IMG/VR virus record: IMGVR_UViG_3300043411_000844
Span: 1 to 63,975 of that record
Direction: 5' to 3' (one strand)
Source: a virus
DNA length: 63,975 nucleotides
The notes under the pieces are model-generated. The model saw only the letters and a program-made list of their open reading frames with translations. It was not told where the DNA came from and did not search any database. The translations under genes were made by a program, and so were the position numbers. This document shows, one piece after another, positions 2,491 through 52,609 of this stretch. Each line of letters starts with the position of its first letter. Position 1 is the stretch's first letter.

Positions 2491-2675
2491 TCCCCTTCCC
2501 CCGGAAGAAGCAGATCAAACCAAACAACGTCTTCCCCGCTGTCCAGCACGTGCATCCTCTGATCCGCTGCGAGAAGTGCAAGGGGTACTACCGGCAGGGG
2601 AGGGCGCTGTTCCATGTGTGCCCTTCGGAGCAGCAGAGGCGGGCGATGAAGCAGGAGATGCGCCGGGATGTCTGA
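2487..2675 (+). CDS. Small zinc-finger-like protein
   Basis: A 62-residue product from a GTG start that overlaps the methyltransferase stop (GTGA). It carries CEKC at residues ~27-30 and a later FHVCPSEQ, so one Cys pair plus a His/Cys could hold a metal. The N-terminus and C-terminus are basic (RKKQIK, RRAMKQEMRRD). It is squeezed between two DNA methyltransferases, overlapping the next by eight bases. No family recognised; an accessory to DNA binding is possible. Confidence 0.6.
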   Translation: MIPFPRKKQIKPNNVFPAVQHVHPLIRCEKCKGYYRQGRALFHVCPSEQQRRAMKQEMRRDV

Positions 2676-3666
2676 GCTTCGTGTCCTGGATTTGTTCAGC
2701 GGAATCGGAGGGTTCTCACTTGGCCTTGAAAGAGCAGGCATGCGCACCGTCGCCTTCTGCGAGATCGATCCGTTCTGCCGGCGAGTGCTCGCCAAGCACT
2801 GGCCAGGCGTCCCCTGCTACGAGGACGTCAGAACCCTTACAGCCGACGCTCTTTCCCGAGACGGAATTGCCGTCGATGTCATCTGCGGCGGCTTCCCCTG
2901 CCAAGACATCAGCTTCGCTGGCAAGCGCGCTGGCCTCGAAGGTGCGCGATCTGGTTTGTGGGGAGAGTATGCCCGACTCATTGGCGAGCTACGACCCCGC
3001 TTCGTCATCGTGGAGAACGTCCCAGGCTTGCTTTCTCTCGGGATGGGTCGAGTTCTCGGAGACCTTTCCGCGCTCGGGTACGATGCGACGTGGGATTGTG
3101 TCCCAGCTTGCGCCGTCGGCGCCCCTCACAGACGCGATCGGGTCTGGGTCGTTGCCCACTCCCAGAGCGGAGGGGTTCGACGCCGGCGGAGCGGACCCGA
3201 GACGCAGCCTGCATTCCTACGTCAAGAAATCATTGCTCCCGACTCCATCGGCGACGAGCTACGGCAGCAACCAAGGCGGAGCCGCCGGACGGGTCGGCAA
3301 GGTGAGGCCGTCGCTCGAGACGATGGCCAAGCACGGGCTCTGGCCGACGCCGACAAGTTCGCTAGGCACGAAGGGCGGACGGGTCACGCCGCAGAAAAGC
3401 CGGGAAGGCGGAACGCTGATCGAGGCCGTGAGTGCGAGGACCTGGTGGCCAACGCCAGACGCGAGCCCACACAAGTTTCGGCTTCAAGGCGACAGCCAGC
3501 AATCGAAGTCCCTACGGGGACAGATCGGTGGGAGTTTGAACCCGACGTGGGTCGAGTGGCTCATGGGGTTCCCGCTCGGGTGGACCGTCTGCGAGCCCTC
3601 GGCAACAGCGTCGTCCCGCAGATCCCGGAAATGATCGGCCGCGCCATTCTGGAGTCCGTTCAATGA
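2668..3666 (+). CDS. C5-cytosine DNA methyltransferase (Dcm family)
   Basis: The 332-residue enzyme methylates carbon 5 of cytosine in DNA. Motif I is LDLFSGIGGFSLGLE near residue 6, motif IV GGFPCQDISFAG near residue 75 with the catalytic Cys, motif VI VENVPG near 115, motif VIII RRDRVWVV near 156 and motif X RALGNSVVPQIPE near 309. The stretch between VIII and X (residues ~165-300) is Arg-rich and does not show a normal motif IX. In the +1 frame the same DNA encodes SLNPTWVEWLMGFPLGWT, which looks like motif IX. The locus is therefore either dual-coding or joined by frameshifting (see the overlapping frame at 2876). No cognate endonuclease is present. It overlaps the next gene by four bases. 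Confidence 0.9.
   Translation: MSELRVLDLFSGIGGFSLGLERAGMRTVAFCEIDPFCRRVLAKHWPGVPCYEDVRTLTADALSRDGIAVDVICGGFPCQDISFAGKRAGLEGARSGLWGEYARLIGELRPRFVIVENVPGLLSLGMGRVLGDLSALGYDATWDCVPACAVGAPHRRDRVWVVAHSQSGGVRRRRSGPETQPAFLRQEIIAPDSIGDELRQQPRRSRRTGRQGEAVARDDGQARALADADKFARHEGRTGHAAEKPGRRNADRGRECEDLVANARREPTQVSASRRQPAIEVPTGTDRWEFEPDVGRVAHGVPARVDRLRALGNSVVPQIPEMIGRAILESVQ
2876..3634 (+). CDS. Overlapping second-frame ORF inside the cytosine methyltransferase gene
   Basis: A frame shifted relative to the methyltransferase is open for 252 codons from this ATG, and further upstream. It has protein-like regularity: four copies of an LPTP/WPTP motif (LPTPRAEG, LLPTPSAT, LWPTPTSS, WWPTPDAS), the string SWRTSQACFLSGWVEFSETF, and a C-terminus SLNPTWVEWLMGFPLGW. 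From memory, near-identical motifs occur in separately annotated phage proteins beside dcm genes. The end matches the expected motif IX of C5 methyltransferases, while motif X is in the other frame. It may be a separate accessory protein or part of a frameshift product. The start at 2876 is the last ATG before the conserved part and is a guess. Confidence 0.5.
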   Translation: MSSAAASPAKTSASLASALASKVRDLVCGESMPDSLASYDPASSSWRTSQACFLSGWVEFSETFPRSGTMRRGIVSQLAPSAPLTDAIGSGSLPTPRAEGFDAGGADPRRSLHSYVKKSLLPTPSATSYGSNQGGAAGRVGKVRPSLETMAKHGLWPTPTSSLGTKGGRVTPQKSREGGTLIEAVSARTWWPTPDASPHKFRLQGDSQQSKSLRGQIGGSLNPTWVEWLMGFPLGWTVCEPSATASSRRSRK

Positions 3667-9224: not shown

Positions 9225-9998
9225 ATGGCATTGACATCTCCGGGGAAGCCCGCAAAGCCCAGCCGCTCACCTCGCAAGCGCGTGCAAGCCTGGGTACTAG
9301 ACGCCGCAGACCGGGCTGAAGGCAAGGCCGCTAAGGAGCCCATCCTCGACCGCGAGGACAAGGAAGCAGGCGAACGCTACGGCCTCCCCCTGAAAACAGT
9401 CACCCGCGCCGCTCGCAAACGTGGCAAGGCTGTAGACCTCATCGGCACCGGACTGCCAGTCCTAAGCCCCAAACACCTCAAATTCGTTGAAGCGCTCGTT
9501 ACTGGAGCAGCTAGCAACGCCATAGAAGCCTACAGGATAGCTTACGGTAACGACCACGCCAGCAGACAAAGCCTGTGGAAGAAGTCGTCCGACCTCAAGT
9601 CCGACCCTAGAACACAAGCATGGCTCCAAGCCTACAGCCTCGCTGCCCTAGACGACATGATGACGACAGCAGACAGGCATGTGGCCCAACTCGCTCGCAT
9701 CCGGGAAGCAGCGCTCGCAAGCGGGGATTTCAAGGCCGCAAGCATGGCTGAGCTCTCGAGGGGTAAGGTTGCAGGGCTTTACCAATCAACCCTTGTCGTG
9801 GAGCATCGCGCGAACGATTCGGCGCTCGTCGACGCTCTCACGCGGGCCTTAGGCGCTGATACTGCTCAGCAATTAGCCTCGCAGCTCGGCATCAAGGCGC
9901 TACCTGGCGACAACGCCCGGCAGATCGTGGTTGACGCTGCAATCGGTGACGCCTCGGTGACTGTGACCGCAGGCGAAGACGACAAAGACGAGGATTGA
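9225..9998 (+). CDS. Terminase small subunit
   Basis: A 257-residue protein that should recognise phage DNA for packaging and pass it to the large subunit at 20156. Residues ~80-140 (LSPKHLKFVEALVTGAAS, NAIEAYRIAYG, then SDLKSDPRTQAWLQ) match the small-terminase pattern of an HTH followed by the conserved Lys-x-Pro-x-V-like step. The N-terminus is basic and the C-terminus acidic (EDDKDED). It is unusual that about ten kilobases of other genes separate it from the large subunit. A GC-rich, G-run-rich spacer follows and could be the packaging site. Confidence 0.75.
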   Translation: MALTSPGKPAKPSRSPRKRVQAWVLDAADRAEGKAAKEPILDREDKEAGERYGLPLKTVTRAARKRGKAVDLIGTGLPVLSPKHLKFVEALVTGAASNAIEAYRIAYGNDHASRQSLWKKSSDLKSDPRTQAWLQAYSLAALDDMMTTADRHVAQLARIREAALASGDFKAASMAELSRGKVAGLYQSTLVVEHRANDSALVDALTRALGADTAQQLASQLGIKALPGDNARQIVVDAAIGDASVTVTAGEDDKDED

Positions 9999-10245
9999 CA
10001 GGGGCTTAGCCCCATGCCTGCCGATATGTAAGAGTTAACAGACACCCCCTCGAGCCCATGCTGTGACCCTGTCGCGCGTCACGAGGCTGTGCTTGCGGTG
10101 CTGGTGGCCGTCGTCGTCAGGGTGGGGTGGCGCGGGGTGGCGCGGGCAGGGTGAGGCACGCGGGAGGGGTGGGGAGGCCGGGGGGCGGCACCCCCCAGGG
10201 GTGGCCTACTTCAACTCAGTTCCCCTTCCTACATCCAGCCGCTCT
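9999..10245. other. Non-coding G-rich spacer, candidate packaging (pac) or regulatory region
   Basis: About 245 bases without a convincing gene. GGGGCT-T-AGCCCC at 10002-10014 is a perfect short hairpin. From ~10120 to 10185 there are many runs of three to six G on the + strand (GGGTGGGGTGGCGCGGGG and others), enough for G-quadruplexes, ending in a GGGG/CCCC fold near 10178-10200. A frame is open here but codes a Gly/Arg-rich sequence with no protein-like features. Lying directly after the small terminase, it is a reasonable pac candidate. Confidence 0.4.
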
Positions 10246-10506
10246 ATGGCCCTCAACATTTTGCGCAGGCCGTATCCGAATTATGTCGAGGCATTCCACA
10301 AGATGTTGACGAAATCGCCTGGAATTGACCGGTTGATCGACATTGTGGGGTCTGGTCAGTCTGTGGCGAGGGCGTTGGGGATGTCGCCGACGCAGGTGTC
10401 ACGGGTGAGGTTGGGACAGAGTGGGGAGCGGGAGTATTTCGCAGCGTTGGCGGAGTTGCTGGAGTTGGTTCCGATCAAGGACTGGCCGGAGCGGTGGAAC
10501 CGATGA
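10246..10506 (+). CDS. Small HTH protein
   Basis: An 86-residue product. Residues ~30-60 (LIDIVGSGQSVARALGMSPTQV) have the spacing of a helix-turn-helix: helix, Gly turn, recognition helix (SPTQVSRVRLG). The ATG at 10246 is chosen because upstream codons are low-complexity; an ATG at 10303 is possible. It overlaps the next gene as ATGA. It may regulate the sugar island that follows. Confidence 0.5.
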   Translation: MALNILRRPYPNYVEAFHKMLTKSPGIDRLIDIVGSGQSVARALGMSPTQVSRVRLGQSGEREYFAALAELLELVPIKDWPERWNR

Positions 10507-10754
10507 GCGACAAGATCGTGCCGCTTCGGGTGATCCCGGCTGAGGAGATGCGTGGGGCGGCGAACGGCGAAGCGATTGAGATGCTGGAGCGGGCGCTGGT
10601 GCGGGTCCGGCTGGGCGAGATGCAGTCTGTGGCGCTGGTGATGGCCTACGCGGACGGCAGCGTCGAGACGGCGTGGGCACAGCGGTCGCAGATACACCAT
10701 TTGACGTCGGGGGCGGCGTCGCTTTTGCAGCGGCTGGCGAGCGGCAAGGAATGA
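10503..10754 (+). CDS. Hypothetical 83-residue protein
   Basis: Starts at ATGA overlapping the previous stop and ends in another ATGA overlap. The pattern (NGEAIEMLERALVRVRLGE, then VALVMAYADGSVETAW) resembles small phage proteins of one helix followed by two strands. No known function; its position makes it part of the operon that enters the sugar island. Confidence 0.55.
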   Translation: MSDKIVPLRVIPAEEMRGAANGEAIEMLERALVRVRLGEMQSVALVMAYADGSVETAWAQRSQIHHLTSGAASLLQRLASGKE

Positions 10755-11398
10755 GCATCCTGATCGGGACACCCTGCTACGGCGGGATGGTGACGGAGGG
10801 GTATCTGCTCTCGTGTCTGGCGCTTCGCAAGGAGATGCTGGCGGTGGGGCTGGGGCACGACTGGCTGACGCTCAGGAATGAGAGCCTGATCCAGCGGGGC
10901 CGGAACGTGATCGCGGCGAGCTTTTTGCGCGAGACGGAGTTCCAGGCGCTGCTGTTCATCGACGCCGACATCGAGTTCGAGCCCGAAGGGGTGGCTCGGC
11001 TGTGGAATTTGATCGCCGACGGGGCTGATGTGGCGGTCGGGGCCTACCGGATGAAGCGTCCGGGGGCTGGGTTGGCGGCCTGGCGGGGCGGCAAGCTCGT
11101 CGAGATCGGGGAAAAGGACGTTCTGCCCTTCGAGGTCGACTACGCCGGCACCGGTTTCATGATGATTTCGCGGAAAACGCTGGAGATCATCGCGGAAAAA
11201 CACCCGGAGATCGAGCACGAGGAAGGCCAGGTCGGGAAATGCTGGGCGTTCTTCGATACGCGGGTCGTAAATGACGGGGCGGGGCCGTTCTACTGCTCTG
11301 AAGACTACTTTTTCTGCCGGATGGTGCGCCATCTGGGCATGCGGGTCGTCATGGACCCGCAAATTTCGCTGAAACACCACGGACAGGCGGTTTACTGA
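10751..11398 (+). CDS. Glycosyltransferase-like protein, GT-A fold (family 2-like)
   Basis: A 215-residue protein. It opens with a strand (MSILIGTPCYGG) and residues ~50-75 give NVIAASFLRETEFQALLFIDADIEFE, where DAD is the metal- and nucleotide-sugar-binding DxD motif of GT-A enzymes. GAYRMKRPG and FCRMVRHLG follow the usual order. It would move a sugar from a nucleotide donor to an acceptor in the cytoplasm. It is the first gene of the island; start and stop overlap the neighbours by four and one bases. Confidence 0.7.
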   Translation: MSILIGTPCYGGMVTEGYLLSCLALRKEMLAVGLGHDWLTLRNESLIQRGRNVIAASFLRETEFQALLFIDADIEFEPEGVARLWNLIADGADVAVGAYRMKRPGAGLAAWRGGKLVEIGEKDVLPFEVDYAGTGFMMISRKTLEIIAEKHPEIEHEEGQVGKCWAFFDTRVVNDGAGPFYCSEDYFFCRMVRHLGMRVVMDPQISLKHHGQAVY

Positions 11399-12009
11399 TG
11401 GCAAAACCAAAGAAACCCACACCGGCTCCCGCCGAGCCAGTGGAGAAAACGGTGATCGCTGCGGGCTACGTCGCGACCGTGCCGTTCGAGGAGGCACTGA
11501 AGGCGACCTCCGTCGTGATCCCGGTCAAAGCGACGGTTGCCGACACCCCGCCCCCGGTTTCCGGCCCGCGCAAGAACGCGCCGAGCGGAGCCAAGCGGCT
11601 GGTGCATAACGGCGTCGTCGTCGACATCCCCGACACCGTCAAACGCAGGGCTCAGATGTCCTACGACGAGACGAGCGTCGATGTCGAGTGCCCGAAGGAC
11701 ATGGATGCCGAGTCCTTCCGCGCCTACGTCGAGCACGCGGCCTCCGAGATGGCGATGCTCCTCGACGAGCGCAACCGCCGCTCGAAGCAGTCGAAGGCCG
11801 CCGAGCGCAATCTGACTGAGATGCGCGCCTCGATCGCCGCCCTCACCATCGAGAGCGCCGGCGGGGCCGAGCTCTACGCCCGCATGTTCGAGCAGAAAGC
11901 CGTCGATGTGGCACAGGCCACGCGCCGCGCCGCCGATGCCTCCTTCCTGCTCAAGGCTCAGGACGCCCTCCTCGAGGACGCCAAGCGCCGTTGGCTCAGC
12001 GCGGAGTAG
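11398..12009 (+). CDS. Hypothetical protein with C-terminal coiled coil
   Basis: A 203-residue protein with a Lys/Pro/Ala-rich start (KPKKPTPAPAEP), a middle domain and a long charged helix from residue ~100 on (ERNRRSKQSKAAERNLTEM, later EDAKRRWLSAE). The ATG overlaps the previous stop by one base. No family recognised. It may hold a complex together; nothing in it suggests an enzyme. Confidence 0.6.
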   Translation: MAKPKKPTPAPAEPVEKTVIAAGYVATVPFEEALKATSVVIPVKATVADTPPPVSGPRKNAPSGAKRLVHNGVVVDIPDTVKRRAQMSYDETSVDVECPKDMDAESFRAYVEHAASEMAMLLDERNRRSKQSKAAERNLTEMRASIAALTIESAGGAELYARMFEQKAVDVAQATRRAADASFLLKAQDALLEDAKRRWLSAE

Positions 12010-12605
12010 GCCCGGCCGAGCTGTTCGGTCACTTCGGCATGAGCCGGGACATCTTCCCGGCTGAGTTCTTAGGCAAAGAGAAGGGCGACGTTCTCATCGT
12101 CGGCGGTGGCCGCTCGGTCTGGGACGATGTCGCTAAGCTCTGGCCTCTGCCCGAGGCCGTCATCGCCGTCAATGACATCGGCATGTACTGGCCGGGCTAC
12201 CTCAAAGGCTGGTACTCGAACGACGCCGTGCAACTGAAGGCGTGGCACGCTGGCCGGCGGCACTGGTGGGAGCAAATCTACAAGCAGACGATCCCGCTGC
12301 ATTCCTGCTTCGCAGAGAAAGCCGGAGGTGGCGTCCACAACTGGCCGTTCCCCGCTCACGGGAGCTCTGGCCTGGTGGTGACACTGATGGCGCTCGCCAT
12401 GGGCTATGAGCGCCTCTGGATGGCGGGCATCCCGCTCGACGACACCGGACATTTCTACGATCCGCCGACCGGACACCCGCTCGTGCGCGGCCGCAAGCTC
12501 TCGAACTTCGAGAACGAAACAAGGGACAGGACGCTCGAGAACCTGAAGCCGCTCCTCAAGGGGCGGATCAAGGCCGCCTCGGGCCGGCTCCTGGAATTTG
12601 CATGA
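11991..12605 (+). CDS. DUF115/sugar-transferase-like Rossmann protein
   Basis: A 204-residue protein. GDVLIVGGGRSVWDDV near residue 32 is a nucleotide-binding strand-loop-helix and VIAVNDIGMYWPGYLKGWYSND follows. This order resembles the 6-hydroxymethylpterin-kinase-like DUF115 proteins that sit in surface-glycan and flagellin-glycosylation loci. LVVTLMALAMGYERLWMAGI fits that fold. The TTG at 11991 has GAGGA upstream; the ATG at 12039 is an alternative. Specific substrate unknown. Confidence 0.55.
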   Translation: MAQRGVGPAELFGHFGMSRDIFPAEFLGKEKGDVLIVGGGRSVWDDVAKLWPLPEAVIAVNDIGMYWPGYLKGWYSNDAVQLKAWHAGRRHWWEQIYKQTIPLHSCFAEKAGGGVHNWPFPAHGSSGLVVTLMALAMGYERLWMAGIPLDDTGHFYDPPTGHPLVRGRKLSNFENETRDRTLENLKPLLKGRIKAASGRLLEFA

Positions 12606-13339
12606 GACTGCCGGAGTTCATGATCGTCTACATCGGCTTCGATCCGCGCGAGGCGCAAGCCTATGCGGTCGCGCGCAACTCGATCCTGCGCAAGACGAAC
12701 ATGCCGATCCCCGTCCGTGGCCTCGTGCTCGACGATCTGAGGGAGCAGGGGCTCTACTCACGGCCGACATCGCGCCGCAAGACGCGCGGCGGCTCGCAAC
12801 TCTGGGACGACATCTCGGATGCGCCGATGGCGACCGAGTTCTCCTGCTCGCGCTTCCTGACGCCGCTGCTCGCCAAGCGCGGCTGGGCCCTGTTCATGGA
12901 TTGCGACATGATGGTGCGCGAGCCCATCGCAAACCTTTTCGCCCTCGCCGATCCCAAATACGCCGTCATGTGCGTCAAGCACAATCACGAGCCGGCGAAT
13001 GCGAAGAAGATGGACGATCAGATCCAGACGCGCTACGCGCGCAAGAACTGGTCCTCCGTTATGCTGTTCAACTGCGATCATCCGGCGAACAAGAAGCTGA
13101 CGCTCGAGATGGTCAACTCGGTGCCCGGCCGCGATCTGCACCGTTTCTGCTGGCTGAAGGATCGCCACATCGGCGAGCTCCCGGCGCGCTGGAACTACCT
13201 CGTCGGGCACACCAAGCTCAAGGACGGCGACGAGCCGGCGATCGTCCACTGGACCGACGGAATCCCGTCGATGGTGGGCTATGAGAACGCCGAGTTCGCC
13301 GGCGAGTATTGGGATCACCTGCTCCGGTGGGCGGCCTAG
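12602..13339 (+). CDS. Glycosyltransferase-like protein (GT8-like DxD)
   Basis: A 245-residue protein. It begins with IVYIGFDPREAQAYAVARNS, a common start of GT8-like proteins. LFMDCDMMVREPI near residue 100 holds the DxD metal motif. AIVHWTDGIPSM near the end supplies the conserved His/Trp segment. It should use a nucleotide-sugar donor. It overlaps the gene before it by four bases. Confidence 0.7.
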   Translation: MRLPEFMIVYIGFDPREAQAYAVARNSILRKTNMPIPVRGLVLDDLREQGLYSRPTSRRKTRGGSQLWDDISDAPMATEFSCSRFLTPLLAKRGWALFMDCDMMVREPIANLFALADPKYAVMCVKHNHEPANAKKMDDQIQTRYARKNWSSVMLFNCDHPANKKLTLEMVNSVPGRDLHRFCWLKDRHIGELPARWNYLVGHTKLKDGDEPAIVHWTDGIPSMVGYENAEFAGEYWDHLLRWAA

Positions 13340-13345
13340 TTCCAC

Positions 13346-14287
13346 GTGAAACTCGCCTGCCTCATGCTCTCCAGAGGTCCGAGATACAACCGGCACCTGT
13401 GGGAGAAGGGGCTCGCGCGACACGGTTGGACGGCGGTTGACACGCCACTGAATGAGCCCGGCCCCGGCGATCTCCTGATCGTCTGGAACCGCATCGGCGC
13501 AGTCGACAAGATCGCTTCGCGGTATCAGGCCGGCGGGGCCAAGGTCATCGTCGTCGAGAACGGCTGGTGCGGCCGCGACAAGGAGGGGGCCGTCCCCTAC
13601 TCGGTGGCCCTCGACTATCACAACGGCGTCGGCAAGTGGCCGGTCGGCAAGGCCGGGCGCTGGAAACGCTGGAAGCTCGACATCAAACCCTGGCGAACCC
13701 AGGGCGACGTGCTCCTGACGCTGCCGCAACGCGGCATCGGCGAGAAGCCCGTCGGCATGACACGCGGCTGGGAGGTGAGCGCCGCTCACCGGCTGGCGCG
13801 GCTCACTGAGCGACCGGTGAGAAACCGGCCTCATCCCGGCGGGCCCGTCAACGACCGGCCCGAGATCGACTGGACAGGCATCTACGCAGCGGTCACATGG
13901 GGCTCCGCAGCCGCTGTGAAGGCGCTGCTCGCCGGTGTGCCCGTCTTCTACGAGCTCGAGAACTGGATCGGCGCGCCGGCCGCCAAGTTCGGTCTGGGAG
14001 ACTCCCGGCGCTGGATTGATACGCCCCACTTGGGGGACCGCGAAGCGATGCTCGATCGCCTCGCCTGGGCCCAATGGGACGCCGAAGAAATCGAGAGAGG
14101 CGAACCTGTCGAATGGCTGGTCAACTCGTCCACGTCTATTTCGTCCAATCGACCCGCTCCCGCGGCATCGCCGAAGCCTTCGCCCAAGGGCTCAAGCTGG
14201 CCGGCGATCGCTCCCGGCTCATCCCCGAGCACGAATATCGCGGTGACATTGAGAAAGAGCCCCAAGTCGCCGCCTTCTACGGACTGA
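13346..14287 (+). CDS. Glycosyltransferase-like paralogue 1 of 4 (GT-B-like)
   Basis: A 313-residue ORF from GTG. It shares four landmarks, in order, with the genes at 14113, 15488 and 16441: VVENGWCGR (others DKGY), NRPHPGG (others RPKPSW), AVTWGSAAAVKALLAGVPVF (others VTHxxN...AGVPVF) and AQWDAEEIERGEPVEW (others CQWSxDEI). The Ser/Thr-Ala-Gly-Val-Pro segment resembles the donor-binding end of GT-B enzymes. The last ~50 residues are Ser/Pro-rich and lie over the next gene in another frame, so the ancestral stop was probably near 14130. It is the most divergent copy. Confidence 0.6.
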   Translation: MKLACLMLSRGPRYNRHLWEKGLARHGWTAVDTPLNEPGPGDLLIVWNRIGAVDKIASRYQAGGAKVIVVENGWCGRDKEGAVPYSVALDYHNGVGKWPVGKAGRWKRWKLDIKPWRTQGDVLLTLPQRGIGEKPVGMTRGWEVSAAHRLARLTERPVRNRPHPGGPVNDRPEIDWTGIYAAVTWGSAAAVKALLAGVPVFYELENWIGAPAAKFGLGDSRRWIDTPHLGDREAMLDRLAWAQWDAEEIERGEPVEWLVNSSTSISSNRPAPAASPKPSPKGSSWPAIAPGSSPSTNIAVTLRKSPKSPPSTD

Positions 14288-14976
14288 ACGGCCGCCTCGC
14301 GACGATCTTCAACGACTACCGGCGCACCGGGCGCACGGTCGTCTTCGCCGATCTCGGCTACTGGGGCCGGCGCATGGGCGGCCGCTACACCGGCTACCAC
14401 AAGGTCACGGTCAACGACCGGCACCCGACGGCTTACTTCCAGCGGGTCAAGCACGATCGCGCGCGCCGCGTCTTCGGAGTGTCTCCGCAGCCGTGGCAGA
14501 GCGGTGGTGAAGCGGTGCTGCTCGCTGGCATGGGCGACAAGGCGGCGCAAGCCGTCGGCCTCGAGCCCGCGCACTGGGAACAGAACATGATCCGCCAAAT
14601 CCAGGCGGTGACGAAGCGACCGATCATCTATCGCCCCAAACCCTCCTGGGACGGGGCCGAGCCCCTCAACGGGGCCGAGTTCAGCCACAAGTCCGAGGAC
14701 ATCGGGCGCGTGTTGCAACGGGCTCACTGTGTTGTCACGCATCATTCCAACGTCGGAATCGATGCGCTGATCGCTGGCGTGCCGGTGTTTACCTGGGAAG
14801 GCGCGGCGATGCCGCTCTCTCTGCAGGACATCGCCAAGATCGAAACGCCGCTCAGGCCCGACGATCACGCCCGCGAGCAGTGGCTCAATGATCTCCACTA
14901 CTGCCAGTGGAGCGTCGACGAGATTGCGAACGGCTTGACATGGCGACACCTGAAAACCGAGGGGCTCATCCCATGA
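14113..14976 (+). CDS. Glycosyltransferase-like paralogue 2 of 4
   Basis: A 287-residue protein, start ATG 14113 (MAGQLVHVYF). Landmarks: VFADLGYWGR, VTVNDRHPTAYFQ, IIYRPKPSWDG, CVVTHHSNVGIDALIAGVPV and CQWSVDEIANG. The VTHHSN...AGVP block is the type seen in GT-B sugar transferases, where it contacts the nucleotide-sugar. The gene overlaps paralogue 1 by 175 bases and is followed by an HNH nuclease gene that splits the tandem array. Confidence 0.65.
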   Translation: MAGQLVHVYFVQSTRSRGIAEAFAQGLKLAGDRSRLIPEHEYRGDIEKEPQVAAFYGLNGRLATIFNDYRRTGRTVVFADLGYWGRRMGGRYTGYHKVTVNDRHPTAYFQRVKHDRARRVFGVSPQPWQSGGEAVLLAGMGDKAAQAVGLEPAHWEQNMIRQIQAVTKRPIIYRPKPSWDGAEPLNGAEFSHKSEDIGRVLQRAHCVVTHHSNVGIDALIAGVPVFTWEGAAMPLSLQDIAKIETPLRPDDHAREQWLNDLHYCQWSVDEIANGLTWRHLKTEGLIP

Positions 14977-15491
14977 ACGACATGGAGATTTGGAAGCCCG
15001 TTCCCGGTTTTGAGGGATTGTATGACGTAAGCGACCACGGCCGTGTGCGCAGCTTGAGAGACTCGCATCAACAGCGGCGCGAGTTAGTGCTGAGCCCCGG
15101 CAACGTTGACGGCTATCGAATGGTCGCATTGATGGCTGGTAAGCGACACCAGCTTCGAGTGCATCGGTTAGTGCTTCTAGCCTTTGTAGGGCCTCCCACA
15201 AATGAGCAGAAGCACACGCGGCATTTGAACGGCGATCGAGCGGATAACCGACTTTGCAATCTTGCTTGGGGGACTCCCAAGGAGAACGGTGCCGATCTCA
15301 CAAAGCACGGGACCATTCGCGGTGCGAAGAACCCGAAGGCTCGGCTCACCGAATATCAGGTAATCGAGATACGTCGCAGATACGCCAGCGGTTGCGGCAA
15401 GGGCATGAAAGCGTTGGCAGACGAGTACGGTGTTCACAAAACCTGCATCTGCTTCCTCTTGACGAGGCGATCTTGGACACATCTTCCGTGA
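14973..15491 (+). CDS. HNH homing endonuclease with NUMOD4 and HTH
   Basis: A 172-residue protein. Residues ~4-45 are a NUMOD4 DNA-binding motif (IWKPVPGFEGLYDVSDHGRV). An HNH_3 nuclease core follows (HRLVLLAFVGPP, TRHLNGDRADNRLCNLAWG) with His, Asn and Asn in place. The end (MKALADEYGVHKTCICFLL) is a recognition helix-turn-helix. Such genes move by cutting alleles that lack them. It is wedged between paralogues 2 and 3, overlapping each by four bases, so it was inserted without breaking either. Confidence 0.9.
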   Translation: MNDMEIWKPVPGFEGLYDVSDHGRVRSLRDSHQQRRELVLSPGNVDGYRMVALMAGKRHQLRVHRLVLLAFVGPPTNEQKHTRHLNGDRADNRLCNLAWGTPKENGADLTKHGTIRGAKNPKARLTEYQVIEIRRRYASGCGKGMKALADEYGVHKTCICFLLTRRSWTHLP

Positions 15492-16444
15492 AGAAAAATG
15501 CGCCCGTCGCCCCAACGCTCAAGATTGCCTTCCTAGTTTCCGACAAACCTCGCGAGATCATGCTCGCAGATGCCCTGGCCAAGGGTGCTAAGGTCCATGG
15601 CGACCGGCTCGAGGTCAGACGCACTGCCGACTACGGCGAGGACGAGAACGGAGACGAGTTGAAGTGGAGCGGCCCGCATCCTGAGGATGACGTCGCTTGC
15701 TTCTTTGGCGTCAAGGGCAAGTCCCGCCGCATCATGGACGACTACCTGGCGGTCGGTAAGGCCACCCTGTTCCTCGACAAGGGCTACACCCGGTCGAAGG
15801 GCAAGAACGGCCACACCGAGTTCACGCGGGTTTCTGTCAATGGCGGGGATCCGCTCGCCTACATGATGGAGCAGAAGCGGCCGAGCACCCGCTGGGAACG
15901 TCTCGGCATCGAGTTGAAGGAACGGCAGGAGAACGGCGGGCACATCCTGCTCTGCTGCTCGTCCGCCAAGTTCCACGAGTTCCATGGCATCAAAGAGCCG
16001 ACCCGCTGGGCAAATCAGACGGTGCGCGAGATCAGGGACTTCTCTGAGCGCACGGTGATCTACCGGCCCAAGCCCTCCTGGCGGGCCGCGGTGCCGGTTG
16101 AAGGCGCGCTGTTCACGTCCGGCAACACGCCAATCGCGGACGCTCTGCGCGGCTGCCACTGTGTCGTCACGCACGGCACGACGGCGGCGGCGGATGCGAT
16201 CTTCGCTGGTGTGCCGGCGATGGTGTTCGGCAATGCGATCGCCCGGCCGGTGGCCGAGACGCGCATCCAGAGCATCGAGACGCCCTACTGGGGCTCCGCC
16301 GACAAGCGCCTGCGCTGGGCTTCCGCCATGGCCTACTGCCAGTGGTCGATGGCCGAGCTCGAAAGCGGCGAAGCCTGGGCCGAGTTGAAGGCCGAGATAT
16401 TGCGACAGCGCGAGCCGATCATGCCGGTGGCGTCACCGAAATGA
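15488..16444 (+). CDS. Glycosyltransferase-like paralogue 3 of 4
   Basis: A 318-residue protein from a GTG that overlaps the nuclease stop. Landmarks: LFLDKGYTRSKG, TRVSVNGGDPLAYM, VIYRPKPSWRAAVPVEGALF, CVVTHGTTAAADAIFAGVP and CQWSMAELESGEAW. These align in order with the other three copies. The first strand (LKIAFLVSDKPREIM) starts a Rossmann-like half. It stops as ATGA on the next copy. Confidence 0.65.
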   Translation: MKKNAPVAPTLKIAFLVSDKPREIMLADALAKGAKVHGDRLEVRRTADYGEDENGDELKWSGPHPEDDVACFFGVKGKSRRIMDDYLAVGKATLFLDKGYTRSKGKNGHTEFTRVSVNGGDPLAYMMEQKRPSTRWERLGIELKERQENGGHILLCCSSAKFHEFHGIKEPTRWANQTVREIRDFSERTVIYRPKPSWRAAVPVEGALFTSGNTPIADALRGCHCVVTHGTTAAADAIFAGVPAMVFGNAIARPVAETRIQSIETPYWGSADKRLRWASAMAYCQWSMAELESGEAWAELKAEILRQREPIMPVASPK

Positions 16445-17235
16445 TCGTTGCCTTCCACTATCGGCAGCCGTTCACGCGGCAGCTTGCCATGGCCGAGGCG
16501 CTGTCAAAGGGCCTGGGCAGCGACCAACTCGCGATTAGTCAAGGCGACCCAAGACACGCACTGGCCGACGCTCTTGTCCTTTACGGCATAGGTGGCATGA
16601 GCCGGGAAATCTGGGACGCCTACGATGATAAGCCCCGAATCCTGATCGACAAGGGGTACGCCCGCAAGGGCTTCATGCGCGTGACGGTGAACGAGTTTCA
16701 CTCGCTGAACTGGCTGCAAATGGCCGACCCGCCTGCGGATCGGCTGGAGATGACCGGCTGGCAAACAAAGCCCTACAGCCTGGACGGCACGCACATTCTG
16801 CTCGACGGCCTGTCGGGGAAGTACTGCCGGTGGTTCGGGTTCGATCGGGACGAGTGGGTACGTCAGGCGGTCGAGGCCATAAGGATGGCCTCCGATCTTC
16901 CGATTTTGGTCCGGCCGCGGCCATCGCACAATCCGCCTCCACCGGTGCCGAAGGGAACAATCCTCGACGTGGGGCCGCTGGCGGACTCGCTGGCCAAGGC
17001 CCGCGTCGTGGTTAGTCACGGCGGCAATCTCGGTTGCGATGCGGTGATCAACGGTCGAGCACATTGCGCGTTCGGACCATCGCCGGCACGGCCAATCTCC
17101 GGCCCTATCGATCCGCCGCGTGTGCCGACTGACGCGCAGCGCCACCGCTGGATGAAGGCGCTCGCCTACTGCCAGTACAGCATGGACGAGATCGCCGACG
17201 GCACGATGTGGAAATGGGTGAGGGCTCAGCTTTGA
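16441..17235 (+). CDS. Glycosyltransferase-like paralogue 4 of 4
   Basis: A 264-residue protein, the shortest clean copy. Landmarks: ILIDKGYARKGF, MRVTVNEFHSLNWLQ, ILVRPRPSHNPPPP, VVVSHGGNLGCDAVINGRA and CQYSMDEIADG. The AGVP segment has become NGRAHCAF, so the donor site may differ. It starts at ATGA on copy 3 and its stop overlaps the methyltransferase start. Confidence 0.65.
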   Translation: MIVAFHYRQPFTRQLAMAEALSKGLGSDQLAISQGDPRHALADALVLYGIGGMSREIWDAYDDKPRILIDKGYARKGFMRVTVNEFHSLNWLQMADPPADRLEMTGWQTKPYSLDGTHILLDGLSGKYCRWFGFDRDEWVRQAVEAIRMASDLPILVRPRPSHNPPPPVPKGTILDVGPLADSLAKARVVVSHGGNLGCDAVINGRAHCAFGPSPARPISGPIDPPRVPTDAQRHRWMKALAYCQYSMDEIADGTMWKWVRAQL

Positions 17236-17834
17236 TCGTCAACGGCTTCACCATCCCGGAAGACACGATCAACTACACGGGAGCCGATGACGCCGCGCGC
17301 TTCGGGCATCGGTTGCCCTACTATACCCAGCGCGTGCGCGAGGAAGCGGAGCAACTTCGCCCCTGGCTCGTGCCGGTCATGAGCTGCCTCGACATCGGCT
17401 GCGGTCTCGGGCTGATCGACGCTCTGATCGCCAAGATCACCGGCGCCAATCACGTTCACATGATGGACGGACAGGGCGCGATCGACAACCGCGTCATGGG
17501 ATACAACGACGGTACGAAAGCCTGGGCTGACGTTCGTGTCGGCCGCCGGCTCGTTGCGGCGAACACCGATGCGGACGTGACGGCGCACGTTGCCGACCCG
17601 ACGGTCACGATCCCGGTAGATCTGATCGTCTCTTTCAAAAGCTGGGGCCACCATTACAATATCGACGAGTACCTCCCGCTCGCTCTCCGCAGCTTGAAGC
17701 CGGGCGGCCGCGTCATCGTCGATCTTCGCAACGGCAAGGGCGGCCGTGAGGTGCTCGAGCAGAACGGCTTCAAAGTCGTCGGCTCCTTCATCGCCTCGCC
17801 CAAATGCGTCCGCACCATCCTGGAGAGAACCTGA
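17232..17834 (+). CDS. SAM-dependent class I methyltransferase
   Basis: A 200-residue protein. CLDIGCGLGLIDALI is motif I for S-adenosylmethionine; VHMMDGQ is motif II, and LALRSLKPGGRVIVDLRNG is the conserved post-motif region. TTG at 17232 overlaps the previous stop and has GAGGG seven bases upstream, so it is preferred over GTG 17208 and ATG 17214. In this island it may methylate a sugar or another small molecule; nothing points to DNA. Confidence 0.75.
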   Translation: MIVNGFTIPEDTINYTGADDAARFGHRLPYYTQRVREEAEQLRPWLVPVMSCLDIGCGLGLIDALIAKITGANHVHMMDGQGAIDNRVMGYNDGTKAWADVRVGRRLVAANTDADVTAHVADPTVTIPVDLIVSFKSWGHHYNIDEYLPLALRSLKPGGRVIVDLRNGKGGREVLEQNGFKVVGSFIASPKCVRTILERT

Positions 17835-18913
17835 TGAAGATCCGCGTGCTCGGTGGTGGTTTCTATGGCAGCCATCTGGCTCTGTCACTCCACCACGACG
17901 GGCACGAGGTCGAGCTTCACGAGATCGCTTCCCGACTGTTCAACGGGGCCTCGGGATCAAACCCGGCCCGTCTCCATCAAGGCGCACACTACCCGCGCTC
18001 CCGCCTGACGCGCACGCACTCACAGGAGAACTTCTCCGCGTTCATGGGCGCCTACGGTTTCCTGACGCGGCCGGTGCCCGTCAACCTCTACGCGGTCGCT
18101 CAGGACGAAAGCCACGTCGACTTCGGCAACTACGTCCAGATCCTCAAGGGCGAGATCGACATGATCCCGGTCCATGACCCGCGCGAGTGGGGCCTGGCCA
18201 ATGTCGAGGGCGCGATCATGACCGGCGAGCGCCACATCGTCATCGACAAGGCGCGCGAGTGGTTCACCGCGGCGCTGCGCGGCATCGCTCAGTTCGAGAT
18301 GCCGCCCGGCCCCGTCGATAGCCCCGACTACGACCTGACGATCGACTGCACGTTCTGCGCCAACGATCACGTCAACATCGATCGCTACGAGCCCTGCATC
18401 ACGGCGCTCCTCGATGGGCCGACGTCGCGGGCGGTGACGATCATGGATGGCCCGTTCCCGAGCATCTATCCCTGGGACGAGGATCGCGGGCTCTGCTCGC
18501 TGTCGTCCGCCAAGTTCACGCCGCTTGCCAAGTGCGGCACGCACGAGGCCGCGCGCGAGGTGCTCGCCACGATCTCGAAGGGTGAGATACAGCAGCGCGG
18601 CGCGGCCATGTTGCAGCAGATCGGACACTACTGGCCTGAGGCCAAATGGCTGTTTCGCATCGCCGACTATCGGTTCGGTGTGCGCGCCATGCCGCTCTCG
18701 GGCGCGGCCGCGCGTCTCGTCGATGTCGTCCGCGTGGGTGAGCGCGCGGTGCGCGTGCGCGCCGGCAAGATCGACGCGGTATTCCACGCCGAGGCCATCG
18801 TCAAGGAGCTGATTGACAAATGGAGCTCGGCGTCACCGGCTACCGCAGCCAGATCGTCCAGGAAATATCCGAGTACGACGGCATCAAAGTCCAACGGCTC
18901 TCACCCCGCATAG
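17834..18913 (+). CDS. FAD-dependent oxidoreductase (DAO-like)
   Basis: A 359-residue protein. It opens with a dinucleotide-binding motif, IRVLGGGFYGSHLALSL, then HEVELHEIASRLFNGASGSN. ARLHQGAHYPRS near residue 48 is a segment I know from FAD enzymes of surface-polysaccharide loci. It would oxidise or reduce a sugar or amino-sugar. The last ~30 residues are Ser/Ala-rich and overlap the next gene by 94 bases in another frame, so the original end was probably near 18820. Confidence 0.7.
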   Translation: MKIRVLGGGFYGSHLALSLHHDGHEVELHEIASRLFNGASGSNPARLHQGAHYPRSRLTRTHSQENFSAFMGAYGFLTRPVPVNLYAVAQDESHVDFGNYVQILKGEIDMIPVHDPREWGLANVEGAIMTGERHIVIDKAREWFTAALRGIAQFEMPPGPVDSPDYDLTIDCTFCANDHVNIDRYEPCITALLDGPTSRAVTIMDGPFPSIYPWDEDRGLCSLSSAKFTPLAKCGTHEAAREVLATISKGEIQQRGAAMLQQIGHYWPEAKWLFRIADYRFGVRAMPLSGAAARLVDVVRVGERAVRVRAGKIDAVFHAEAIVKELIDKWSSASPATAARSSRKYPSTTASKSNGSHPA

Positions 18914-19413
18914 ACCTGACGAGGATCGATCGCTACCTGCTCTGTGCCGGCGTTCTGCACTCGTCTCACATCGTCGACCAGTCCTACGAGGATCAGCACA
19001 TGAGCCTCGAGGTCAACCTACTCGACCCGGTGAACCTCTGCGAAAAAATCTTCGCCCTAAATTCGCGCGCCCGGATCTGCGTCATCGGTTCGGAGAGCGG
19101 TTTCTCCTGGTCCTACGATGGGGTCTATGCCGCGTCGAAAGCCGCGCTGCACAGATACGTCGAGACGAGGCCGCTACAACCCGATCAGCAACTCGTCTGC
19201 ATCGCGCCCGGCATCATCGGTGACGCTGGCATGACGACGCGGCGCAAGGACAAGGACCGGCTCGCCGAGCGCGAGAAGGCGCATCCGAAGGGCCGGTTCC
19301 TGATGGCGCATGAAGTGGCGGCGATGGCGCATCACCTGCTGTTCGTCGACGACGGTTACACGTCTGGCGTTGTCATCCGCATGAATGGGGGCGAGCACAC
19401 ATGCAGACGGTAG
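18820..19413 (+). CDS. Short-chain dehydrogenase/reductase
   Basis: A 197-residue NAD(P)-dependent enzyme. The start MELGVTGYRSQI replaces the longer usual TGxxxGIG loop. LLCAGVLHSS matches the NAG strand, VIGSESGFSWS the catalytic Ser, and YAASKAAL the YxxxK pair. CIAPGIIGDAGM is the usual PG segment after the active site. At under 200 residues it is shorter than the typical ~250. The substrate is probably a sugar intermediate made by the neighbouring enzymes. Confidence 0.75.
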   Translation: MELGVTGYRSQIVQEISEYDGIKVQRLSPRIDLTRIDRYLLCAGVLHSSHIVDQSYEDQHMSLEVNLLDPVNLCEKIFALNSRARICVIGSESGFSWSYDGVYAASKAALHRYVETRPLQPDQQLVCIAPGIIGDAGMTTRRKDKDRLAEREKAHPKGRFLMAHEVAAMAHHLLFVDDGYTSGVVIRMNGGEHTCRR

Positions 19414-20159
19414 TCGTGACCGGATGGCATGCGAAAGGGTTCAAAGAGTTCGCGCACCGTTTCGTCGACAGTTTCGACCGTTTCTGGCCCGGAAACATTC
19501 CGCTCGCCTGCTACGTCGAAGTCTTCGTGCCGATCCCGCGCGGCGAGATGCATCACCGCGACGAGTGCGCCGGCCTCAAGGATTTCCTCGCCGAGAACTC
19601 TGGAAACTATCTCCTCAACGGCCGCGAGCCGAACGACAGTTGGAAACCTCGCGACCGTGAGAGCGGATACAACTGGCGCTTCGATGCCGTCCGCTTCTGC
19701 AAGCAACTCTGCTACCCGGCCGCGATCGCTTCGACGTTTCCGGCTACGAGCGACATTGCGCTCGCCTGGTTCGATGCCGACGTCGTCACCTACAAGCCGG
19801 TGCCTGAGGACATGATCGAGCGCTTCCTCGGCGATCATGATCTCGTCTACCTCGGCCGGCCGGGCAAGCATTCCGAGATCGGCTTCTGGGCAGTTCGGCT
19901 CAATTCCCGGACGCGGGCCTTCCTCAAGGACTTGGCGTCAGCCTATCCGAGCGGCCGGTTCCGCGAGTTCAAGGAATGGCATTCGGCCTATGTCTTCGAT
20001 CGCATCCGTGAGGAGCACGAAGCCAATGGCTTGAAGGCGCACAACTTGACGCCGAACGGCCGCGGTCACGTCTGGTTCCAGCACGAGATCGGCCTCTACA
20101 CCGATCACTGCAAGGGCAACCGCAAGGTCGCCGGCATCTCCCCGGAGCGGCCGCGGTGA
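19401..20159 (+). CDS. Glycosyltransferase-like protein with DxD motif
   Basis: A 252-residue protein. A central segment, IALAWFDADVVTYKPVP near residue 115, has the DxD of GT-A transferases. The first strand is VVVTGWHAKGFKEFAHRF. RFCKQLCYPAAIAS precedes the DxD. HVWFQHEIGLYTDH near the end could supply the acidic/His residues. It closes the island and overlaps the large terminase start by four bases. Confidence 0.65.
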   Translation: MQTVVVTGWHAKGFKEFAHRFVDSFDRFWPGNIPLACYVEVFVPIPRGEMHHRDECAGLKDFLAENSGNYLLNGREPNDSWKPRDRESGYNWRFDAVRFCKQLCYPAAIASTFPATSDIALAWFDADVVTYKPVPEDMIERFLGDHDLVYLGRPGKHSEIGFWAVRLNSRTRAFLKDLASAYPSGRFREFKEWHSAYVFDRIREEHEANGLKAHNLTPNGRGHVWFQHEIGLYTDHCKGNRKVAGISPERPR

Positions 20160-21655
20160 ACCTCGACAATCTGCCGGTCGAAAAGCTCCTCGCGGAAGCG
20201 CTCAGGCGCATCGAGCGGAGGAAGGTCTACTCCTATCTGCCCTTTGGCCATCCCGACACGCTCTGCCCCACCGGCAAGGTGTGGAAGCGCAGGCGCGACG
20301 AGGGCAAGTGGTTCGAGTGGTCGAACGATCCGTGGCAGTTGGATTTCCATCAAGCCGGCCGGTACGCCAGCGAGCGGATGCTCCGGTGCGCGAACCGCGT
20401 CGGCAAGACGTTGTCTGCCGCGGCCGAAGTCGCCTATCACCTGACGGGCGACTATCCCGACTGGTGGGAGGGGCATCGCTTCAAGCACCACATTCTCTGC
20501 TGGGCTGGCGCGATCACGAACGAGACGAACCGCGACATCGTCCAGAAGGAATTGCTCGGCGGCACCGGTGAGTCCTTCGGCACCGGCATGATCCCCGGCC
20601 ACCTGATGAAGCCGCCCCAGATGCGGCAGGCCGGCGTCTCCGATGTCGTCGACACCGTCAAGGTCCAGCACGTCAACGGCAAGCATTCGACCCTGATCTT
20701 CAAGACCTACGATCAGGGCTGGCTCAAGTGGCAGGGCGCGGCTCCCGATCTCGTCTGGCTCGACGAGGAGCCGGACGACATGAAGATCTTCACGGAAGCC
20801 CGCACGCGCTTGCTCACCACGCGCGGCCGGCTGATCGTCACGTTTACTCCGTTGCAAGGCCAGACCGAGCTCGTCGATCACTTCCAGAACGCGACCTCGA
20901 CGTCGATCTGGATGCGTACGGCAACCTGGAACGATGTTCCGCACCTGTCGCCGGACGACAAGCGGGACATTCTCGAAAGCTATCCCGACTACGAACGGGA
21001 GGCGCGCTCGCAAGGCGTGCCGATGATGGGCGAGGGCCGCATCTTCACGACCGGCGAGGACGACATCAAGGTCCAGCCGTTCGCGATCCCCGGCTCGTGG
21101 GCGAGGATCAAGGGTATCGACTTCGGCGTCGATCATCCGGCGACCTGTGCCGACATCGCCTGGGACCGCGACAAGGACGTGCTCTACGTCACGCGCACCT
21201 GGCGCAAGTCGGGGTCGGACGTGACCGAGCACTCGAGCGCCATCGAAGACACGTCGCCCTGGGTGCCGGTCGCCTGGCCCCATGACGGCACGAACCGGGA
21301 GAAGTCCAACGGCCGGATGCTGAAGGACCACTACATCGAGAAGCGCCTTCGGATGCTCTCGCTCTCGGCCCGCTACGACAACAAGAAGGGCGGCGGCCAG
21401 CCGGTCGAGCCGATCCTGGTCGAAGTGCAGAAGCGCATGGCCGACGGCCGCTTCAAGGTGTTCGCTTCCTGCACCGAGTTTTTTGACGAGATGCGCACCT
21501 ATCACCGCAAGGAAGGCAAGATCGTCGCCAAGCGTGACGATGTTCTGAAGGCGGTGTTCTACGGCGTCATGATGCGCCGCTTCGCCATCTCTGAGTTTGC
21601 AGCGCGCATCCGGCGCGCGGGTCCATCCAGCGCCTACGACAAGGCAATCGTATGA
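20156..21655 (+). CDS. Terminase large subunit
   Basis: A 499-residue packaging motor. Walker A RCANRVGKTLSA lies near residue 78, Walker B LVWLDEEPDD near 199 with the catalytic Glu, and LIVTFTPLQG is the coupling motif. The nuclease domain starts with IKGIDFGVDHP near 318, with further acids downstream. It drives DNA into the capsid and cuts it. Start GTG 20156 overlaps the previous stop. The small subunit is about ten kilobases upstream, which is unusual. Confidence 0.95.
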   Translation: MNLDNLPVEKLLAEALRRIERRKVYSYLPFGHPDTLCPTGKVWKRRRDEGKWFEWSNDPWQLDFHQAGRYASERMLRCANRVGKTLSAAAEVAYHLTGDYPDWWEGHRFKHHILCWAGAITNETNRDIVQKELLGGTGESFGTGMIPGHLMKPPQMRQAGVSDVVDTVKVQHVNGKHSTLIFKTYDQGWLKWQGAAPDLVWLDEEPDDMKIFTEARTRLLTTRGRLIVTFTPLQGQTELVDHFQNATSTSIWMRTATWNDVPHLSPDDKRDILESYPDYEREARSQGVPMMGEGRIFTTGEDDIKVQPFAIPGSWARIKGIDFGVDHPATCADIAWDRDKDVLYVTRTWRKSGSDVTEHSSAIEDTSPWVPVAWPHDGTNREKSNGRMLKDHYIEKRLRMLSLSARYDNKKGGGQPVEPILVEVQKRMADGRFKVFASCTEFFDEMRTYHRKEGKIVAKRDDVLKAVFYGVMMRRFAISEFAARIRRAGPSSAYDKAIV

Positions 21656-30770: not shown

Positions 30771-33700
30771 ATGGCAGGCTTGACGTTTGACGATCTCCCG
30801 ACTGTTGGACAGTCGGGGGCCGGAGGCTTGTCGTTCGATGATCTGCCGGATGCGAAGGCATCTGCGCAGCCTCAGCAAAGCGCGGGGCTGACGTTCGACG
30901 ACTTGCCGGATGCTAAGGAGGACAAGCTTGGGGCCATGGGCTCCTCATGGGGAATGATGACCCCTGAGGAGCAGAAAGCGTGGAGCGCGGAGCGAGAGAC
31001 GAAGCTTGCGGACTTTGCGCGCGTGCAAGACACGACCGCGACTGGTCTTCGCCAGGAAGCGGCCTCGCCGAAAGCCGATAACTCTGATCCGCTGTTCAAC
31101 TATTTTTCGCAGGCACTCGACACAGCTCGCGTCAAGGACGCGGATCAGTTTGAACAAGGCGCACAGAAAAGCCGCGACGAGCTGAGATCCATCCAGAAGG
31201 GCACGGCTGATCCCGTTCGCAAAACGGCGACACGCTCTGCGGTTGAAAATCTCGTTCGCGGTGTCGGCGCTGATGTGGGCGCGGGGTTGGTCGAGACCAT
31301 TGGCATCGCGGCTGGGTACGCCACGCGCGCGGTCTCTGGCGACAAGATCGACCCTGCCGACAACGCTCTCTACAAGGTCGGACAATCGATCCGCGAGTAT
31401 GTCGAGAAAAGGTTCCCCGGCGACGAGCGGCGGCAGGACGAGCTAGCGCAGCAACTTGCCCGGGGTGCTGGACAGGTTGCCGCTCTCTATGGGCCGAACG
31501 CAGCGCTGCGTATTGTCGGTGCCGGCACGAAGACGATGGTCGGTGTTTCGACGGCCACTGGTGCGGGCATGGAAGGCTCGTCGCTGTTCAATGAAGCGAC
31601 AGCCGCCATGAGGGAGCAGGAAAAGAAAGCCTCCTCCAAGCGACAGACGGCAGCACGTGGTCCGGTTGACCCGATTACCGAGCAGGACCGCTTCATCAAC
31701 TTCATGGGTGGCATCGGGCTCGGTGCGACTGAAGCCATACCGCTCGCCACCGACTTCGCCGGCAGTATGCGTGGATGGCGTCGAGTGCTCGCGAAGGGCG
31801 CCGAGCAGGGGCTTGAGGAGGGCGCTCAGGAAGCTGGGCAGACGATGGGCGAGAACATCCTGGCCCAGAACACGTTCGACCCCGAGCGCCGGACTATGGA
31901 AGGTGTTGGCAATGCCATCGCCGTTGGTGGCATCCTCGGCATATTGGGTGGGGCTGGTAGCGAAGCCATCACGGAGATGGTGCGACCCAAGTCTGAGTTC
32001 GAGGAAGCCCTTGATCTCGACACCCCCGCAGGAGCCGCTCCCGAGGCCGCTGGCGGCCTTCCCACTCCCGAAGGTCTCGTTCCCGCTCAAGATGCCCCCC
32101 CGCCTCCACCGGCCCCCGTAAGCTCTCCTGAGCCACAGAGCGGATATGAGCGGCTGCATGGGGAGACTGGCGCATCTGCAAGTCGGCCTACACCAAAGGT
32201 AGGTGACTTCGTTCAATGGACGTCTGGCGGTGCGGATCAGTTCAAGTCTCCGCAGCGGGTTGTGTGGGTCTCCGACGATGGAAGCTACGTTCGCGTCGAA
32301 GGTAGCATGACGGGCTTGCCCGCCGGAGAGACGACCGTTGTTGGCCCAGTCCCGCCATCGACTGCTACGTCGACCGTCCTCGAGGAACTCACTCAGCGCG
32401 AAGGTGGCAAGAAGTCTCCCCTCGGCAAGGCGGACGTGAAGGCCGAGGATGCGGCATCCTTCTACGGGAAGGGGGCCACGCCCTATCCTAAGACCGGCGA
32501 TGGGTATGGCGACAGCCCGGCGCCATCGGCAACTTCTACCGTGCTTGACGAGATTTCCAAGCGCGAAGGCGGCAAGAAGTCTCCCCTCGGTAAGGGTCTC
32601 TCTGAGATCACGGCTGGGCAAAAGGGTGGACAGGCGGCTGTCGATCGCGTGGCGGGAACCGTTGCGGCGGTCCCCGTTGGCGAGCCCGTCAAGATCACCA
32701 CGCCGGATTCCTCCGCCGAGATCGAGGCCCGTCCCGTCCTGGTCGAACTCGACACGCTGAAGCCAGCCTCGGGCAAGCTCCAGCCCCGCGACCGCGGCCG
32801 TGTCGAGATGGTGCAGGAGGCCAAGGAGCGCGCTGTCAGGCTCGATCCCGCGCGCCTGATGCCCGATCGCGTCTCCGACGCCGGCGCTCCCATTGTCACG
32901 GCCGACGGCACCGTCATCTCCGGCAACGGTCGAGTGCTCTCGATTGCCGAGGTCTACAACAGCCCTGCCCTGAAAGCCCAAGCCAACGCCTACAAGGCGG
33001 CGCTGCCGGCCGAAGCGCAAGGCATGAAGAAGCCCGTGCTGGTGATGCAGAGCCAGCTTTCCGGGCTTGATGCCGAGCGCTTCGCCCAGCAGTCGAACCG
33101 TCCCCGCATCGCGACCATGAGCGCGACCGAGCAGGCGAACACCGACGCCGCGGTCATGGGTGACATCCTCGATCTCTATCAGGGGGGCGACTTCGAGTCG
33201 GCTCCGAATGCGCCGTTCCTCAAAGCGTTTGCCACGAACGTAGTCGCTTCATCCGAGCGCAACTCCTTCTCCAAGGACGGGCAACTCTCGGCCGAGGGCA
33301 TGCGCCGCATGCAGGGGGCGATCCTTGCCCGCGCCTATGGCGAGACCGGTTTGCTCTCCCGCATGCTTGAGTCCACGGACGACAACGTCCGCGCGATCGT
33401 CGGCGCGCTCCAGGATGCGGCACCGCAGATGGCGGCGCTGCGCAAGGCGGTGCAGGCCGGCCAAGTCATGGAAGGGCTCGATCCGCTCCCCGACATCTCG
33501 GCCGCCGTGTCTCTGGTGTCCGACATGCGGAAGAAGCGGCTATCGCCGGCCAAGTTCTTCCGCCAGATGGACGCCTTCACCGAGGTCAACCCGGATGTGG
33601 CCGGCTGGGTGCTTTCGCTGTACAATCCGGCCGATCCGAAGACGGGAGCCGAAGCCGGCGAGCACGCGCTGTCGCGTCCGCAGATGGCCGCTGTCTTCAA

Positions 33701-52593: not shown

Positions 52594-52609
52594 GATTCTA
52601 TGTCTCCAC

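Follow-up and report, generated by a model that had tools for sequence, protein, structure and literature searches.

The DNA analysed here, which we call the window, is the whole stretch of 63,975 bases of the virus record IMGVR_UViG_3300043411_000844. On its forward strand, the gene of the small terminase subunit (9225-9998) forms the left border of a gene island and that of the large subunit, TerL (20156-21655; PF03237 5e-17, PF17289 1e-15), forms the right one. The small terminase of the window has no Pfam match on its own, but a profile built from five homologues matches the small terminase of Pam5 (3.8e-11), and one relative matches Terminase_2 (PF03592). Between the two terminase genes lie two small genes, an HTH-like one (10063-10506) and a phrog_796-type one (10494-10754), followed by 13 forward genes at 10751-20159. 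A first-pass annotation had proposed that about ten genes split the terminase pair; the split is real, and the re-derived ORFs bring the count to 13. Its gene list was right overall, having missed an endonuclease gene and a gene for a protein of 203 aa (both described below).

The island genes are tightly packed. From 10754/10751 to 20159/20156 there are 14 borders. Seven of them overlap by exactly 4 bases, including the one that the TerL start at 20156 shares with the end of the last island gene, so that the earlier description of almost all genes as coupled by 4-base overlaps was a mild overstatement. The other borders include two 1-base overlaps, one of 13 bases, one of 19 bases that involves a TTG start at 11991, and one 6-base gap. 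At the last two, the ORFs of the GT-B paralogue GTB1 and of an FAD-dependent oxidoreductase extend past the start of the following gene, by 175 and 94 bases (for GTB1, its final ~57 codons). Proteins related to both stop earlier, which suggests that these long 3' ends reflect lost stop codons or sequence errors. A sigma-70 scan found no forward promoter-like or terminator-like site inside the island, which says little for such a phage.

Elsewhere in the window, 22-base repeats (ACCCCCCCAGTCAAG...) are found at both contig ends (15-91 and 63899-63975), suggesting that the map is circular or that the assembly broke within an array of repeats. Two adjacent genes near the left end encode an N6/N4 (1387-2490) and a C5 DNA methylase (2668-3666). 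A 2,451-aa protein (30771-38126) matches very large phage proteins, with a short match to a virion RNA polymerase family. An IS1595-family transposase gene (51676-52803, reverse strand) lies close to the integrase gene (49570-50709), where the G+C content is lower.

The first island gene, GTA1 (10751-11398), encodes a GT-A glycosyltransferase (PF00535, GT2, 3.5e-5; phrog_1574 1e-31) whose IDADIE-type (DxD-type) and SEDY motifs are kept in 12 homologues. Its profile matches the glycosyltransferase A197 of the Sulfolobus virus STIV (1e-6). GTA1 reaches only a chance-level match with GtrB (E 0.39). Then comes the 203-aa protein (11398-12009), with no family match and no relative in the cargo set. 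The next gene (11991-12605, TTG start) had been called DUF115-like. We found instead that it is nearer to the GT42 sialyltransferases: a profile of 13 homologues matches Cst-I/II at 5e-4 to 4e-3, the best match (Cst-I, 5e-4) extending mainly across about 40 residues. We therefore describe the product as a transferase-like protein of the GT42/MptE superfamily.

Four genes encode GT-B paralogues of a single family: GTB1 (13346-14287; family A4, 40-45% identical to GTB1 of other phages), GTB2 (14113-14976), GTB3 (15488-16444) and GTB4 (16441-17235). Other members are found in ct7QV12, CcrColossus, Pelagibacter phage Mosig and the contig L111, and GTB3 in particular has homologues in Caulobacter giant phages, Mosig and ct7QV12. 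Single-protein scans of IMG/VR with GTB3 and GTB4 returned no relatives, and GTB homologues occur in 9 of 385 bacterial genomes of one class. By fold search with a predicted model of GTB2 (pLDDT 76), the closest PDB structures are the beta-Kdo transferases KpsC and WbbB (E 1e-7 to 3e-6). The paralogues share with them the fold and an N-terminal stretch with an acid-x-Gly-aromatic end, but differ in that identity is only 10-16% and TM about 0.5. At the sequence level, similarity to KpsC falls short of significance (0.57), and an alignment of five members holds no invariant Asp. Between GTB2 and GTB3 sits the gene of a NUMOD4-HNH homing-type endonuclease (14973-15491; PF07463 4.5e-12, PF13392 2.8e-10), which is probably an inserted selfish gene.

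The remaining enzymes complete the set. A GT8-like glycosyltransferase (12602-13339) matches PF01501 at 0.0015, below the curated cut-off, and phrog_28018 at 1e-52, and is 49-62% identical to homologues from six other cassettes. Since GT8 homologues are frequent in bacterial genomes (45/385), and 20 bacterial GT8 neighbourhoods gave no match to reference structural genes, we rejected GT8 as an indicator of the cassette in phages. Downstream of GTB4 lie a SAM-dependent methyltransferase (17232-17834; PF13489, Methyltransf_23, 8e-9), 36% identical to that of a set in prophage G151, and a DAO-like FAD-dependent oxidoreductase (17834-18913; PF01266 9e-5, below the curated cut-off), with 47-61% identity to its counterparts in other cassettes. 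They are followed by a short-chain dehydrogenase (SDR) with a YxxxK motif (18820-19413; PF13561 3e-11; 36-47% identity to cassette homologues) and by GTA3 (19401-20159), a GT-A-like transferase with 39-48% identity to its cassette homologues and an invariant DxD-type pair, D125/D127 (alignment A7). We also noticed a recurrent plasmid operon (L068-L072) encoding an epimerase, a sugar-phosphate isomerase, a glycosyltransferase, an FAD oxidoreductase, a GtrA-type protein, a GT2 and a large protein.

By using GTA3 as bait, we collected cassette loci from other phages. The order GTB1-GTB2-GTB3-(methyltransferase)-FAD-SDR-GTA3-GT8 is found in L198, L200, L201, L204 and L207, and partly in L199 and L206; in the window and in L202, a 63,912-base relative, GT8 stands ahead of GTB1. 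Cassette proteins are 36-62% identical to those of the window, and no phage was matched in a megablast with the island. This similar gene order in unrelated contigs indicates that the island is not a chance assembly, and bears out the earlier view of a pathway-like set rather than a single scattered enzyme: largely the same ordered set is present on other phage backbones. In L202, genes for Gfo/Idh/MocA and DegT enzymes lie before TerL (11592-14525), which suggests amino-sugar synthesis in this closest relative.

Where the flanks are readable, the cassette lies among virion genes, that is between the major capsid protein (MCP) and connector genes, beside the tail-tube gene or before TerL. First, it lies between MCP and head-tail connector in L204, directly 3' of MCP in L207 and L198, and near the portal gene in L201. 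Second, prophage G382 carries a shorter set (GT42-like, GTB1, GTB, GT9, GT8) between MCP and the connector region, the connector, which has no Pfam match, being named from its position and its similarity (34%) to that of L204. Third, the set of prophage G151, which includes a methyltransferase, ends in a GT8 gene that overlaps the tail-tube gene (PF06199) by 4 bases, and L205, L208 and L210-213 have a tail-tube homologue downstream.

The backbones that carry the cassette differ. L204 has a PF05065 capsid with Phage_connect_1, L207 a PF05065 capsid, L198 Phage_cap_E with a lambda-D-like decoration protein, L201 Terminase_6C with a Mu-type portal, and the window and L202 a podovirus set. Families contrast across them both for capsids (PF05065 versus PF03864) and for terminases (TerL_ATPase versus Terminase_6). 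From these unlike capsid and terminase genes, we infer that the cassette may have spread between backbones. A recent transfer between podoviruses and siphoviruses is not supported, as the concatenated cassette tree (unrooted, with low internal support) is compatible with the window and L202 being neighbours.

In podoviruses related to the window, the genes upstream of TerL were surveyed with TerL as the only bait, in non-redundant contigs with at least 2.5 kb upstream of it. At TerL identities of at least 48%, each of the 12 relatives has one or more module genes (10 of them have GTA1, 9 the GT42-like gene), against only 3 of 28 with more distant TerLs. As judged from these sequences, GTA1 and the GT42-like gene form a core that a clade of uncultivated podoviruses has conserved upstream of TerL. 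In one contig of 45,398 bases (L065), the GTA1 gene is split across both ends, so the map is probably circular. Further cargo in the relatives is mostly of glycan type, namely a third glycosyltransferase, FkbM and other methyltransferases, several sulfotransferases, a hexapeptide transferase and a radical SAM protein. Also, a beta-protein of 100-160 aa (alignment A6), with no homologue in the window, often lies directly before TerL. Its model resembles tail-fibre/tail-spike domains when compared with predicted viral structures (16 matches at E <= 0.001) and shows no significant likeness of this kind against the PDB; as a pointer to the glycosylation target, this predicted fold would be only a hint. 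In L111, a pectate-lyase/tail-spike-like gene is found near the place of the beta-protein.

Taken together, these observations are best explained if the island encodes a glycosylation pathway that is expressed late, works in the cytoplasm and adds sugars to a virion protein, a reading to which we give a probability of roughly 60%. By family, profile and fold matches, the island does encode glycosyltransferases, and its placement among virion genes, which is seen in phages of several types, makes a virion protein the favoured acceptor. Such placement supports virion glycosylation without strictly defining it, and because the genes of a late operon are transcribed together no matter what they act on, location is indirect evidence. 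The abundance of GT8 homologues in bacterial genomes, away from reference structural genes in the 20 neighbourhoods compared, also speaks against this reading. By hydropathy, all island proteins lack transmembrane segments, and none was recognised as a nucleotide-sugar synthase, which argues for action in the cytoplasm with donors from the host. For the same reason, the "near-complete" pathway proposed earlier holds as a coordinated set and not as a near-complete one.

In the mechanism that we propose, the cassette would be co-expressed with the late genes, and the GTA1/GT42-like core would prime a site on an abundant virion protein, be it the major capsid, a tail or a head-surface protein. 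The GT-B, GT8 and GT-A enzymes would then lengthen the chain, their donors perhaps being Kdo-like ulosonic acids that the host supplies in CMP-activated form, and the methyltransferase, FAD oxidoreductase and SDR would modify or cap the sugars. Enzymes with KpsC-like and with GT42-like folds take CMP-activated ulosonic acids as donors, and CMP-Kdo is produced by hosts with LPS. From this fold likeness, the island enzymes possibly use such donors; in a cyanophage with a GT8 homologue, KdsA- and KdsB-annotated genes lie nearby. The gain for the phage, speculatively, could be changed adsorption, particle stability or a shielded particle surface. More specifically, and at somewhat less than even odds, the ordered cassette may be widespread in phages with unrelated backbones that infect Gram-negative bacteria, and may serve, in the cytoplasm, to build on proteins of the head or tail a complex glycan that includes host CMP-ulosonic acids, as a dedicated system distinct from that of the mycobacteriophages.

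The first-pass annotation had left virion proteins, host surface and phage DNA as possible targets. The capsid, connector and tail-tube neighbours favour the first, and both DNA modification and Gtr-type surface conversion are weakened. An unlikely alternative, though the strongest of those considered, is that the cassette changes the glycans of the host surface, be they LPS core, capsule or S-layer, either at a late stage of infection or during lysogeny, and so blocks superinfection or the adsorption of progeny to debris. GT8 and KpsC/WbbB-like folds, as computed here, are indeed typical of LPS and capsule assembly. Moreover, plasmid homologues of the FAD protein lie in GtrA/GtrB surface-glycan clusters, but in the island neither GtrA, GtrB nor a membrane-bound Gtr, as used in O-antigen conversion, was found, and it likewise has no flippase, polyprenyl transferase or transmembrane protein. 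The island also overlaps TerL instead of being placed with lysogeny genes, and its homologues in other phages have capsid and connector genes on either side or a tail-tube gene as neighbour. Pelagimyophages carry similar GT8-rich sets in their host-recognition region, which have been interpreted as modifying the host O-chain (PMC7029224). These sets lie near tail-fibre genes but in a hypervariable region, unlike the ordered cassette.

It is more doubtful still that the island is miscellaneous cargo, without common function, at a tolerant site between the terminase genes. The inserted HNH endonuclease would fit such a site, and content does vary among the relatives (sulfotransferases, methyltransferases, hexapeptide transferase, radical SAM). 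However, the variable genes are themselves mostly glycan-modifying, gene order is kept across different backbones and the genes overlap one another. Hypermodification of the phage DNA, for example by a glycosylated hydroxymethylated base, is very improbable despite the two DNA methylase genes at the left end of the window and the precedent of phage glycosyltransferases that modify DNA (PMC12619734), as a thymidylate-synthase/hydroxymethylase homologue, needed for the 5hmU/5hmC routes, is absent from the window and from 11 of 12 relatives (a thymidylate-synthase-type homologue is present in one), and we dropped the hydroxymethylated-base route, other base modifications remaining compatible. A defence function had no support, the methyltransferase matching mad2 weakly (7e-6) in a scan that covered the island proteins other than GTA3, GTB4 and the HNH protein.

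Virion glycosylation as such is known. In the mycobacteriophages Che8 and Rita, phage glycosyltransferases have been linked to glycans on the major capsid and tail-tube proteins (Freeman et al. 2023, as described in PMC11256854 and PMC12619734). Like the island, this system relies on phage-encoded glycosyltransferases. However, its genes have been described near the 3' end of the genome of a mycobacteriophage and its glycans are demonstrated, whereas the cassette, known here from genes alone, is longer, lies inside runs of structural genes of other phages and has GT-B paralogues and FAD and SDR enzymes. Related sets are found in CcrColossus (gp126-gp131) and its relatives, where GT42-like, two GTB, GT8, methyltransferase and GT9 genes lie between tail and lysis genes; unlike in the cassette, no FAD or SDR gene was seen. 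The annotation of these genes goes no further than hypothetical protein or generic transferase, and the phiCbK genome paper does not treat them. Pelagibacter phage Mosig carries GTB, GTA3 and GT8 homologues. Our search of the open-access literature, with most subscription papers outside its scope, found no description of the cassette, in agreement with the first-pass annotation, which did not recognise the set as a described phage system. By gene content, a cassette with GT-B paralogues, FAD and SDR enzymes inside structural genes would be a new form of virion glycosylation.

Virion glycosylation is proven in few phages. If the cassette does glycosylate virions, many uncultivated phages would carry this modification, and a block of genes whose present annotation is hypothetical or host-surface auxiliary would acquire a testable role. 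Since related sets are carried by cultured phages (CcrColossus and its relatives, Mosig) and by prophages, a direct test is possible.
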